From a virus: a stretch of 24,988 nucleotides of DNA. A program made the position numbers and the translations under genes. Location: positions 1 through 24,988 of the IMG/VR virus record IMGVR_UViG_3300042934_000522; one strand, given 5' to 3'. The notes beneath the pieces are model-generated. The model did no database searches. It was not told the origin of the DNA and saw only the letters and a list, made by a program, of their open reading frames with translations. Every line of letters starts with the position of its first letter. Position 1 is the stretch's first letter. Positions 8,128-17,444 of the stretch are shown piece by piece.

Positions 8128-8163
8128 GAATGAATGAAGCAACGCCCATTAGATCATTCATTC
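8128..8163. repeat. Inverted repeat of GAATGAATGA
   Basis: GAATGAATGA (8128-8137) and its exact complement TCATTCATTC (8154-8163) are separated by 16 bases. A variant, GAACGAATGAA, lies at about 8228-8238 over the next start codon. The same motif recurs in the 14.9-15.8 kb control region, which suggests a shared binding protein. Confidence 0.6.
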
Positions 8164-8207: not shown

Positions 8208-8233
8208 CAGGTCTACCGAAGGGTTGTGAACGA

Positions 8234-8440
8234 ATGAAGGAACGTGCTCTGCGTCATGTCGTCCGATTGTCCGCGGTCGTTACTGCGGCTGCTCCTGTCG
8301 TCGTGTCAGTGCTTAGCTCCCTCCCCTGGGAGTGGGCAGTGTCCCTGTCTGCTACCGCGCTTGCCGCGGGTGAGGTTGCTCAGCGGGTTGAGAATGCCAA
8401 GACCCTCCGTGCCTTTGTCGATGGCGCCTACGGCGAGTAG
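8234..8440 (+). CDS. Small hydrophobic protein, holin candidate
   Basis: The product is 68 residues. A basic N-terminus (MKERALRHVVR) is followed by a hydrophobic segment (about 12-29), a short WEW turn and a second mildly hydrophobic segment (about 34-48), then a charged tail. That is the outline of a small two-TM holin, and it lies downstream of the lysin in the same direction. The second segment is Ala/Ser-rich and weak, so a one-TM protein is also possible. The ribosome binding site is poor (GAAGGG about 10 bases upstream). It ends before a strong bidirectional terminator. Confidence 0.6.
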   Translation: MKERALRHVVRLSAVVTAAAPVVVSVLSSLPWEWAVSLSATALAAGEVAQRVENAKTLRAFVDGAYGE

Positions 8441-9172: not shown

Positions 9173-10516
9173 TCATAGCCAGCCCTCAGACAGCATGAGT
9201 TCTTGCGTCTCTGGGTTGTCCAGAGTACGCGTCTCCTGACGTGGTTCGGGGATCGTAAGTGTCAGTGGAGTGGGCTCAGAGGCAGTCTCTTGCTCCTGCT
9301 CTGTTTCCGCGGGGACAGACTCCGTGTTGGCCCAGCGGTACTCAACTCCGGGTCGACCACGCCCGGAGGAGACAGTGGCGGAATGAACATCAGGCATGTT
9401 TGCAAGGGCTCTTCGAATGCTTGCCGCATCTGCCCTGTTTACCAGTCGCCGCAACAGAACCGAGTGAGGAAGCTTCCCTTCGAACTGAGTAAGAGCCTCA
9501 CGGATCATCTCAGGCAGGGTCTTGACTGCCCTACCAGACACCTTTGTGTCCTCCCGAACCAACTTCCCTACGCTCTGAGTGGAGTACTGGACGAACGCCC
9601 AAGCAGCATCGATAGCCTTTCGGCTGATGACTGTTTGACATTCTGTCGCGGTGAGTACCGCGGCCACCCTCAGAATCTGTTCAGGGGTCCGCTCAACGTA
9701 GCAGGACAAGTGCTTAGGAGTCTCCTCCTGTTTCAGCTCGAACTGAACACGGAGTTCGTCAAAGCGCTCACCGGCCACGGGATCGAGCGTCATCACACGA
9801 GGACGACTACGGGCCCAGTCATAGGCCTCAGCAAGCCCCTGCACTTCCGGATACAGTTCCCTGTTGTTGTAGGGCAGGATCTTGGACCGATGTACCAGGA
9901 CGGGAAGCAAACGGTTGTAGCTACCGCCCCTGGCATCCCGCGGCTTAATGTAGTCAGTCCACTCCCCCGGTGTGATGTGGGAGTGAAAGCCCAATCGCGG
10001 GTCGGGAACGACCATAGACACCTTAGTCGTGGTGTGCCTGATAGTCGATCCGTCCCAGCAATTCCGGAGCTTAGATGCGAATGTAGGGCACCTGTTCTGC
10101 CGTTTCAGGTTCTCTGACCACTCTTCATCAATGGTGATGACTCGTGTGTCCGGTCCCCCTTCGCTCCCCTCCGTCCGCTCCTGCTGTTCGTAGAGAACCT
10201 GCGTGAGGGACGGACCGGACGACACACCCCCCGCGGTACGTTCTTCCAGGAACGTACCGATGGATGGCTGAAGCATGCCGCGGGCAACACGGAGTGCCGT
10301 GCCCTTACGACCAATAGCAGACTCACCGGCCAGCACGGTCCAGACGACGACAGGACGCCCGTTCCACAGAGTCACGTGCCCACCGATGGCACTGGACCAC
10401 AGAGCCAGAACCGAGGCATAGACACCTACCGGGTCTGCCTCGGTATACGGGTCTGCCTCCAGGACTGCGTCACCGATGGGCCCATACCTCATGGGCTCGA
10501 ATGCTTCCAGGCTCAC
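9173..10516 (-). CDS. DUF3987-like ATPase (helicase/primase-associated)
   Basis: The 447-residue product resembles DUF3987-type proteins, which carry a RecA/DnaB-like ATPase fold and are often fused to or encoded near primases. A degenerate Walker A (LAGESAIGRKGTA, about residues 62-74) and a Walker B-like strand (RVITIDEEW, about 125-133) are visible. The C-terminal part (about 320-395) looks like a winged-helix domain; the last 50 residues are a Pro/Glu/Thr-rich tail. No primase active-site motifs are seen, so a separate primase would be needed. The GTG start at 10516 overlaps the upstream stop as GTGA. It is much longer than its neighbours. Confidence 0.75.
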   Translation of the reverse strand: MSLEAFEPMRYGPIGDAVLEADPYTEADPVGVYASVLALWSSAIGGHVTLWNGRPVVVWTVLAGESAIGRKGTALRVARGMLQPSIGTFLEERTAGGVSSGPSLTQVLYEQQERTEGSEGGPDTRVITIDEEWSENLKRQNRCPTFASKLRNCWDGSTIRHTTTKVSMVVPDPRLGFHSHITPGEWTDYIKPRDARGGSYNRLLPVLVHRSKILPYNNRELYPEVQGLAEAYDWARSRPRVMTLDPVAGERFDELRVQFELKQEETPKHLSCYVERTPEQILRVAAVLTATECQTVISRKAIDAAWAFVQYSTQSVGKLVREDTKVSGRAVKTLPEMIREALTQFEGKLPHSVLLRRLVNRADAASIRRALANMPDVHSATVSSGRGRPGVEYRWANTESVPAETEQEQETASEPTPLTLTIPEPRQETRTLDNPETQELMLSEGWL

Positions 10517-12341: not shown

Positions 12342-12356
12342 ATGTCGCATTTCAAC
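12342..12356 (-). promoter_or_regulatory. Copy of 15-bp box (leftward GTTGAAATGCGACAT)
   Basis: The box reads GTTGAAATGCGACAT leftward and lies just upstream of the ribosome binding site of the 12326 gene. A GGGCA/TGCCC hairpin with an A/T loop sits immediately upstream of it (about 12361-12379). See the other copies at 13614, 14284 and 14897. Confidence 0.5.
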
Positions 12357-12388
12357 TGGTGGGCAAAAAATATATGCCCCTGGGTGGA

Positions 12389-14881: not shown

Positions 14882-14910
14882 ACGCTACGCCTGCTCATGT
14901 CGCATGTCAA
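14882..14910 (-). promoter_or_regulatory. Leftward sigma70-type promoter
   Basis: Leftward: TTGACA (complement of 14905-14910), 17-base spacer, TAGCGT (complement of 14882-14887), a near-ideal match to Streptomyces housekeeping promoters (TTGACR, TAGRRT). The -35 lies within the fourth copy of the 15-bp box (14897-14911). Transcription would begin near 14875 and run through about 370 bases of structured leader to the 14507 start. The GGGGGC/GCCCCC and GCACCC/GGGTGC hairpins at 14816-14870 lie in this leader. Confidence 0.7.
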
Positions 14911-15225
14911 CCTGGACCCCCAGGCTTCTTTCATTCATTCATGATCCTGTGGGGAGGGAGCGCAGTAGCCCACATCTGTATGCAGGGGCCTACCTCTACA
15001 TACGCGCGTATGCGCGCACGCGTATAGCACAGTACGTGGACATGCACAACCCACAAGGTCATGGGCATAGAGGGACCTAGTAGGCCCTCATGAGGACACC
15101 AGGCAAGGTGGACTAGCTCCTGCCTGAGGCAGGGGTGTGGCTCGCTCCCTGGGCCTTGCATGCCTCCAGGCATGCCTCCTGCCCATCCCGTCCGAATGCC
15201 CATTGAATGAATGAACTCAGGCATT

Positions 15226-15256
15226 CAATGCCGGCATGTATTGAATGCCGGCATGC
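15226..15256. repeat. Paired 10-bp palindromes 17 bp apart
   Basis: ATGCCGGCAT occurs at 15228-15237 and 15245-15254, each a perfect palindrome, within the 12-bp direct repeat AATGCCGGCATG. The spacing is about 1.6 helical turns. GGCATTCAAT (15220-15229) and ATTGAATGCC (15240-15249) also form an inverted repeat across them. Such layouts are typical of operators for dimeric regulators. Confidence 0.6.
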
Positions 15257-15520
15257 TATCCCGCCACACCTGCCCGCCTTTATTCATTCATTTGCATTGC
15301 TGTGCGCACACCCGGGGTAATGCATTTGTACATACACAACGGACCCGCCGGGGGCACCTTCCTTCGATCGCGTACGGGTAATGAAGCCTTCAGAGCCTCC
15401 CTAACGGCCTAACAGCCCTGTGCCCGCCCAAGTCCCTCCAGGCCCCCTAAAAGCCCCTCTGAGAGCCTCTCAGGCCCTTTCTCGGCTCCACAGAGCCTCT
15501 CCCCCACCCTCGGGACCGTA

Positions 15521-15537
15521 AATGAATGAAAGAAGTG
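15521..15537 (+). repeat. 17-bp direct repeat AATGAATGAAAGAAGTG, copy A
   Basis: Identical to 15723-15739. A 15-base version (AATGAATGAAAGAAG) lies on the minus strand at 14925-14939, just upstream of the leftward promoter. It could start a 24-codon frame (MNERSALNC...), but no ribosome binding site is visible. Confidence 0.65.
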
Positions 15538-15616
15538 CCCTCAACTGTGTGATTCGGGTCTCAGTTTCAGGGATTCTGTCACCAACCACCGCGTAGTGAC
15601 ACCGACATATATATTG

Positions 15617-15765
15617 TAAGGGGTTTGGAATATACCCCCTTAGTGATCTTGAGGGAGACCCTAGAGCCCCGCCGGGGGAGGCGGGGCGACAGAGGTAGTG
15701 CCGGACCCCTGAAGTCCGGCACAATGAATGAAAGAAGTGTGATCCGACCCCCCGAAGGGTCGGAT
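15617..15765. other. Array of four perfect hairpins
   Basis: Stems: TAAGGGG 15617-15623 with 15636-15642; GCCCCGCC 15666-15673 with 15680-15687; TGCCGGAC 15699-15706 with 15714-15721; ATCCGACCC 15742-15750 with 15757-15765. Loops are 6-12 bases. None has a proper U tract. Repeat copy B lies between the third and fourth. A compact structured RNA or a set of protein sites is possible. Confidence 0.6.
15723..15739 (+). repeat. 17-bp direct repeat AATGAATGAAAGAAGTG, copy B
   Basis: Exact copy of 15521-15537, 202 bp downstream. It could start a 17-codon frame (MNERSVIRPPEG...) whose codons overlap the fourth hairpin of the array; no ribosome binding site is visible. A partial copy (GAATGAATT) follows at 15772. 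Confidence 0.65.
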
Positions 15766-15854
15766 GGGACAGAATGAATTAATTAGCTAGCCCCGGAATG
15801 AGGATCTTGTGCTACCCTGGTATTTCCACGTACTAAATCCCCCGTTAGGGCGTG

Positions 15855-15904: not shown

Positions 15905-16093
15905 TCAGACTGTTGTCACTCCGGGTCTCTTCAGGCTCTGGTAGTGGTCCCAGAGCCTCTGACCCTCTTCGCACCCCTCTCTGGGGTGGCTGCCTTCGAG
16001 GCAGCCGGCACAGGGTTCGCCTCCATGAGGCTGGACGTGCTCCAGATATGAGCCCCAGGCCATCCAAAAGGCCATGGACTCGTCCTTGGTCAT
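15905..16093 (-). CDS. Small Cys-containing hypothetical protein
   Basis: A 62-residue protein whose ATG at 16093 overlaps the upstream stop as ATGA. It contains HGGEPCAGCLEGSHPREGC: three Cys and two His that could hold one zinc. The rest is helical with several Trp (MAFWMAWGSYL). It is the last gene before the 15855-15889 terminator. No family is recognised. Confidence 0.65.
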   Translation of the reverse strand: MTKDESMAFWMAWGSYLEHVQPHGGEPCAGCLEGSHPREGCEEGQRLWDHYQSLKRPGVTTV

Positions 16094-16404
16094 CCCTGGC
16101 CTTGAGTCAGGGACTCATAGAGGTTGATCTGAGCTGCCACGACTTGGTGTAAACCGTGCCAGGTCATTGCTGAGACCGTGGCTTCCAGACCGTTTGAGGC
16201 TGGCCCGTGCTCGTCCTTTAGATCCTGGACGTTGTAGGGCGGTACTGCGTACCAGTGAGGCCCGTGCTTGTCGTCTGGCTTCGAGCAGAATGAAGCCCAT
16301 CCGTCCGGCAGGGGTGTCTTGATGGTCACTGACCCCGGCCCAGGGATGGGCTTAGAGTCAAGCGACCTTCGCAACGCCACTACAGCGTTGTCCGCTTGGG
16401 TCAT
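16090..16404 (-). CDS. Hypothetical protein
   Basis: A 104-residue protein from ATG 16404 with GAGGAC upstream. The N-terminal third looks helical, the middle has LPDGWASFCSKPDDKHGPHWYAV (aromatic/His-rich, possibly beta), and the C-terminal third is helical (MTWHGLHQVVAAQINLYES). Coupled to the next gene by ATGA. No family is recognised. Confidence 0.65.
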   Translation of the reverse strand: MTQADNAVVALRRSLDSKPIPGPGSVTIKTPLPDGWASFCSKPDDKHGPHWYAVPPYNVQDLKDEHGPASNGLEATVSAMTWHGLHQVVAAQINLYESLTQGQG

Positions 16405-16841: not shown

Positions 16842-17444
16842 ATGCCGCCTAAGTGGCGAACCCTAGCTGACCGACTTGCAGAGGAAATCAGGGCAGGAGC
16901 GTACGCCCCGGGTGACCATCTGCCTTCGATCAGAGACCTGGTTAGGGCAGGCGAAGGGTCCAAGACCACAGTCCTTGCTGCCATCAGGGCCTTGGAGGAT
17001 GAGGGACTGGTTGTCTCGTCCCGGGGACACGGGATTGTGGTGCAGGCACTGCCAGCAGAGGGGCCTACACAGCCCCATGGCGCGGTTCGAGTCCCTGACG
17101 CAGTGGCAACAGCCCTTGGTGTTCCCAGAGGCACTGAGGTGCCGTGCCGGCACCAGCTCTTCAAGGAGAAGGGAAAGCCAGCCTGTTCCTTGACCAAGTA
17201 CTCCCACCCTGAACATGTCAAGGCGTCGGAACCACCCGTGATCGATAGCTTCAGGGAGACCTTGATCCCCAGGGAACCGTCCTACGAAGAGGTCCGAGCC
17301 CTAGACCTCACCCACCATGAGTGGGTGGTAGAGATCATCCGGACATCGTTCACCGCTGATGGTTCAGCGGTGGAGGTTGATGTAGAGGTCTATGCAGCTT
17401 CGAAGTTCACTTGGACACACGACTCCCCGGTTTCACACGAATAA
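16842..17444 (+). CDS. GntR-family transcriptional regulator
   Basis: A 200-residue protein with the N-terminal winged helix of GntR regulators: WRTLADRLAEEIRAGAYAPGD, LPSIRDLV, then TTVLAAIRALEDEGLVVS (residues about 5-62), ending in the RGHGIVV wing. The C-terminal part (about 70-200) is shorter than a full UTRA domain but shows similar strands (RHQLFKEKGKPA, then EWVVEIIRTSF). GGAGGAAG lies before the ATG. It is the only DNA-binding regulator recognised here and lies near the integrase, so a lysogeny role is plausible but unproven. A host-derived origin is also possible. Confidence 0.85.
   Translation: MPPKWRTLADRLAEEIRAGAYAPGDHLPSIRDLVRAGEGSKTTVLAAIRALEDEGLVVSSRGHGIVVQALPAEGPTQPHGAVRVPDAVATALGVPRGTEVPCRHQLFKEKGKPACSLTKYSHPEHVKASEPPVIDSFRETLIPREPSYEEVRALDLTHHEWVVEIIRTSFTADGSAVEVDVEVYAASKFTWTHDSPVSHE

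Follow-up and report, generated by a model that had tools for sequence, protein, structure and literature searches.

The 24,988-base IMG/VR virus fragment analysed here (the window), which comes from an Ibantik-like Streptomyces phage, carries a family of nine short intergenic sites, six of them arranged around cos. The family is well supported by sequence comparison as a set of genome-wide putative binding sites of a phage-encoded protein. Our preferred reading, to which we give a probability of about 45%, is that these are iteron-like, cos-linked recognition sites of a phage DNA-binding protein, most likely gp88, which would act as an initiator of the SaPI Rep kind. A preliminary description of this DNA had proposed a regulator or initiator site family; the binding-site family stands and the initiator is favoured, but the GntR-type protein named there as a possible binder is not. 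No description of these sites was found in the open-access literature searched, and they are neither annotated nor described in the Ibantik record (NC_073462).

The nearest named relative, Streptomyces phage Ibantik (NC_073462, 56,362 bp), is 82% identical over 32% of the window. It is a temperate phage that encodes a serine integrase and whose record annotates an immunity repressor. The first base of its linear record corresponds to window position 15357 and the last to 15356, and cos therefore lies inside the region 14925–15784. The larger cluster of sites had been assigned to the boundary of the rightward genes, where it does lie, but this region is more than a gene boundary and contains the physical genome end, which had been overlooked. 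Between sites 7 and 9, a row of hairpins occupies window positions 15671–15765, and one stem differs from its Ibantik counterpart by a compensatory change (GCCGGAC/GTCCGGC in the window, GCCGCAC/GTGCGGC in Ibantik). No tRNA or Rfam element was found in the window, a scan with a long pattern from the left of cos gave no match, and the gene at 16090–16404, a neighbour of cos, retrieved no relative when used as bait in viral contigs.

Searching the window for GAATGAATGA with at most one mismatch gave 14 matches, which fall at nine places, some of them in two registers, and almost nowhere else. In shuffled sequence the mean was 0.97 and the maximum 5, so that none of 100 shuffles reached 14. All nine places had been listed beforehand, correctly to within a base or two. 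The exact 17-bp pair AATGAATGAAAGAAGTG at 15521 and 15723 is real, as is the third match, which covers 15 bp at 14926–14940. As had also been noted, every site lies between confident genes, and only the variant copy at 8229 overlaps the start of an ORF (8234). Three of sites 4–9 are to the left of cos and three to the right (Table 1). Exact AATGAATGAAAGAAGTG matches elsewhere in IMG/VR were mostly chance occurrences in AT-rich contigs, and only one (L012) belonged to a relative.

Table 1. Sites and associated features in the window, with the corresponding positions in Ibantik and in IMG/VR 3300042934_000106 (G001)
Feature	Position	Strand	Ibantik	G001	Remarks
Site 1, AATGAATGAA	8129..8138	+	49108	35961	between lysin A and ORF at 8234
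Site 2	8153..8162	-	49132	35985	inverted relative to site 1
Site 3, AACGAATGAA	8229..8238	+	49208	36070	over ORF start 8234
Site 4	14930..14939	-	55916	43554	about -427 from cos
Site 5	15206..15215	+			-151 from cos
Site 6	15283..15292	-			-74 from cos; left member of pair kept in distant relatives
Site 7	15521..15530	+			+165 from cos; right member of conserved pair
Site 8	15723..15732	+			+367 from cos
Site 9	15773..15782	+			+417 from cos; AATGAATTAA in window, AATGAATGAA in Ibantik
gp88 homologue	9173..10516	-			DUF3987 AAA+ helicase with C-terminal winged helix (DUF3987 match and structure model); proposed binder
Cys/His (zinc-like) protein, 65 aa	10513..10710	-			adjoins gp88; possible partner
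CGGGGTAATG	15313..15322	+			35-45 bp left of cos cut; nearly invariant across all site types, relatives and satellites
cosN, GGACCCGCCGGGGGCA/CCTTCCT	15341..15363	+			genome end between 15356 and 15357 (the slash), from ends of Ibantik NC_073462
CGCGTACGGGT	15369..15379 (+13..+23)	+			shared by all site types; TerS probably contacts it, by analogy with HK97 (+15..+29)
Stoperator-like site TGTCGCATTTCAACT	12343..12357	+			separate family; presumed repressor site
Stoperator-like site TGTCGCATGTCAACC	14898..14912	+			presumed repressor site
Further stoperator-like copies	13615, 14285	+			same repressor family in window

The sites are kept in close relatives. All nine are syntenic in Ibantik, with order and orientation preserved and spacing nearly so, and the 56-kb genome holds one further near-match, in coding DNA. 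The nine are also present in two IMG/VR relatives, 3300042934_000106 (G001, 57.6 kb) and 2934411495_000001 (G002), whereas their absence from close relatives would have spoken against the family. The offsets from cos (about -427, -151, -74, +165, +367 and +417) hardly shift despite the divergence of the flanking DNA. In Ibantik and G001, a weight matrix located one more copy, the tenth (GGGAATGAAAAAA), which lies upstream of the late operon.

To extend the comparison, we used gp88, the DUF3987 protein, as bait, fetched 31 viral and 8 genome loci, and read the whole records of the relatives; cosN could be recognised in many of them. In 15 phages outside the training group, GAATGAA was 11.5-fold denser at -700 to +600 of cos than elsewhere (39 merged sites near cos versus 137 in 790 kb, p = 6e-26), and it gave 52 raw matches near cos compared with at most 7 for any of the other 104 permutations of this 7-mer. 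Among 29 cos loci, GAATGAA is found at -85 to -65 in 15 and at +140 to +220 in 14 (all on the plus strand), and in four more GGTAACA occupies both places of this pair; the reversed-sequence control had no match at either place. In some G-type phages, sites at cos are few or absent. In most motif-bearing phages another copy precedes terS by about 200 bp; it lies in a small gene's leader and, in several phages, immediately follows a terminator. A small gene before terS in relatives (for example, L022:22136-22312) codes for CxxxCxDCPYDFC and, after it, a conserved GWRQDALFELEELGDLYG tail; copies of this gene in the Success group are without the Cys part.

While the places are fixed, the letters vary between phage groups. 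One form is TGAATGAA, whose tails vary; the Ponzi group has GGAATGAA, and the Success group carries GGTAACAACAA-like sequences at the same three places. For the latter, TGATGCA was at one point taken as the motif and dropped in favour of GGTAACAACAA, which occupies three syntenic places. Fixed places combined with changing letters are the trace that would be expected of a trans-acting protein of drifting specificity. We then compared the five site types, which were first labelled by hand (T, N, C, G and V) and then checked objectively by the base preceding GAATGAA, with the genes of the same phages. Of 36 gene families, only gp88 and gp27 match the site types without error. On gene trees, where the minimum is four changes, both need four, and eleven other families need five to nine, including TerS (7), TerL (8), HNH (6) and the repressor, DnaB and primase (5 each). 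Agreement of nearest neighbours with site type was 100% for gp88, 88% for the repressor and 85% for TerS. Two mosaic phages (G010 and G023) separate these genes: most of their genes, TerS included, resemble the Ponzi group, and their TerS, HNH and repressor are G-type, but the winged helix of their gp88 is N-type and so are their sites (TGAATGAA). Computation shows the site family itself, how it is laid out around cos and conserved, how its letters switch, and that it covaries with gp88. Because gp27, a DUF3310-like protein that in our judgement does not look like a DNA-binding protein, fits the site types as perfectly as gp88, such a fit can arise without binding; and part of the gp88 fit could be due to linkage, since the sample was gathered by gp88 homology and gp88 is the nearest conserved gene to the sites.

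The structure model of gp88 (pLDDT 83) has its best Foldseek matches among MCM2-7 (E 1e-7) and predicts a winged helix at residues 334–397. The sequence of this winged helix carries group signatures, which in G010 and G023 match the group of their sites. Sites 1–3 are located 0.9–1.05 kb downstream of the gp88 stop codon. DUF3987 domains have been predicted to be replicative helicases (PMC5862659), and a gene recognised by DUF3987/DUF5906 models has a supporting role in the replication of PICMI satellites (PMC10803314). The family of the adjoining Cys/His protein was the sole one to match in a presence/absence screen, being found in 21 of 21 GAATGA-type phages and in none of the seven others; these seven may be a single clade, and the pattern may go back to a single event. 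In G009 and in satellites L154 and L156 this protein occurs as a fusion with BRCT and Lsr2 DNA-binding domains, and it possibly represents a variant form of the Lsr2 N-terminal domain.

Packaging offers a different explanation, in which the sites would be cosB-like TerS contacts that nucleate packaging from both sides of cosN, with the terS-leader copy being autoregulatory. Six sites lie beside cosN at conserved offsets, one copy is conserved just upstream of the terS operon, and a single TerS family is common to all relatives. However, TerS has a better candidate in the cosN-adjoining element CGTGTACGGGT at +13 to +23, since this element is invariant across site types and the HK97 TerS site lies at +15 to +29 (PMC11331095). 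The TerS tree exceeds the minimum number of changes, with misfits in G009, G010, G017 and G023, and three copies are 7 kb away from cos. Moreover, seven elements that keep cosN and have no close TerS are mostly without the motif: near cos, GAATGAA is absent from L146–L149 and L152, occurs once in L144 (at +254) and is present to some extent in L145. At the level of sequence, these satellite loci show that cosN can be retained without the motif, the packaging of such elements being a separate matter. Taken together, we regard TerS as quite an unlikely binder.

An unlikely reading, too, is transcription control, with a protein at operon ends and leaders serving as a roadblock or as a switch between leftward early and rightward late expression. 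Where the late operon ends and to the right of cos, copies adjoin terminator-like hairpins, and before terS a copy comes directly after the terminator, an association seen by inspection. Against this, the sites have mixed orientations with respect to transcription, no hairpin accompanies the copies at -74 and -151, and Ibantik has no copy close to its central divergent promoter or its repressor gene. Alternatively, the sequence might function as RNA or prolong intrinsic terminators (hairpin, T-run, CATTCATT) instead of binding protein as DNA, and TTTTTTCATTCATTCA does lie directly 3' of a hairpin upstream of terS in several phages. We consider this very unlikely: around cos there are hairpin-free sites in both orientations, and the change of letters (GAATGAA to GGTAACA) affects unlinked places together, an indication of a trans-acting factor.

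These temperate phages encode a PHROG 357 repressor, which we take to be L5-like, and the sites could in principle be its operators or stoperators. In every phage examined, however, there is a distinct set of stoperator-like intergenic repeats, presumably the sites of that phage's repressor: TGACAGTTTCAAGTT in Ponzi, ATGTCTCGTGTCAACC in Ibantik, ATGTCGCATTTCAACC in the window and TACCCAGGAGGCAACTAA in Success. Since these different families fit the repressor, and no GAATGA site lies near the repressor gene, we deem it extremely improbable that the repressor binds the motif. The GntR-type protein was rejected because its gene (16842–17444) has no homologue in Ibantik, G001 or G002, the three relatives that carry all nine sites.

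As for the satellites, Streptomyces genomes contain compact elements (L153, L154, L155, L156 and in part L157) with an integrase and an Ibantik-type cosN, which also encode a scaffold-like protein, a DUF3987 helicase, a Cys/His-BRCT-Lsr2 fusion and a major capsid protein that is 76–93% identical among four of them. No TerS, TerL or portal was detected in them by tblastn, and a search for iterons downstream of their DUF3987 gene gave none. By their gene content these elements are probably cos-type, capsid-encoding phage satellites, comparable to the cos SaPIs that have a capsid homologue (PMC8569155).

Returning to gp88 as the initiator, we infer gp88 binding, origin function and any effect at the terS leader as follows. 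The helicase would act like the SaPI Rep and Cch2 initiator helicases, perhaps together with the adjoining Cys/His protein. Its C-terminal winged helix would contact several GAATGA-core sites, namely sites 1–3 downstream of its own gene and sites 4–9 around the joined cos ends, where it would open the DNA and so start lytic replication. The pair at -74 and +165 would mark the junction of both genome ends and, more speculatively, the site in the terS-operon leader might tie late-gene expression to the level of initiator. Several observations count against this reading. GC skew tracks transcription and made no origin visible, the DUF3987 gene of the satellites has no iterons downstream, the phages encode DnaB-like helicase and primase genes as well, and sites at cos are sparse or lacking in some G-type phages. 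An origin alone leaves the conserved terS-leader site without explanation. That one site family and one MCM-like helicase do three jobs, as origin, as mark of the joined cos and as switch in the terS leader, is in our view improbable; if it were true, replication initiation would be coupled to late expression and packaging, and the recognition letters would have turned over several times (GAATGAA to GGTAACA) within a fixed architecture. If the initiator reading is right, a concrete candidate origin and initiator would be available for a whole group of temperate Streptomyces phages, the cos region would do more than packaging, and the group-specific sites with their matching winged helices would be natural protein–DNA pairs for studying how initiator specificity changes.

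The stoperators of mycobacteriophage L5 are asymmetric, intergenic and about 10–14 bp long. The sites described here are likewise asymmetric intergenic sites in an actinobacteriophage, but the repressor has a separate site family and the early operons are without GAATGA sites. As with the lambda cosB R-sites and the HK97 TerS site (PMC11331095), copies lie beside the packaging cleavage site at fixed offsets; in contrast to those systems, a separate conserved element lies proximal to cosN, the motif type does not track TerS, and copies also occur far from cos and are absent from most cos-bearing satellites. SaPI Rep uses its C-terminal domain to bind iterons that lie downstream of its gene (PMC7581432). 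Compared with SaPI Rep and SCCmec Cch2 (PMC7581432), the setting here is a complete temperate phage with its own DnaB-like helicase and primase genes, and the predicted sites are in three places, with six around cos and one before terS. The likeness to both lies in an AAA+ helicase with a C-terminal DNA-binding domain (for gp88 by fold only) and in short non-coding repeats downstream of the helicase gene, here with a larger cluster at cos. A recognition sequence tied to the helicase type may be a further likeness, for gp88 fits perfectly, but so does gp27.
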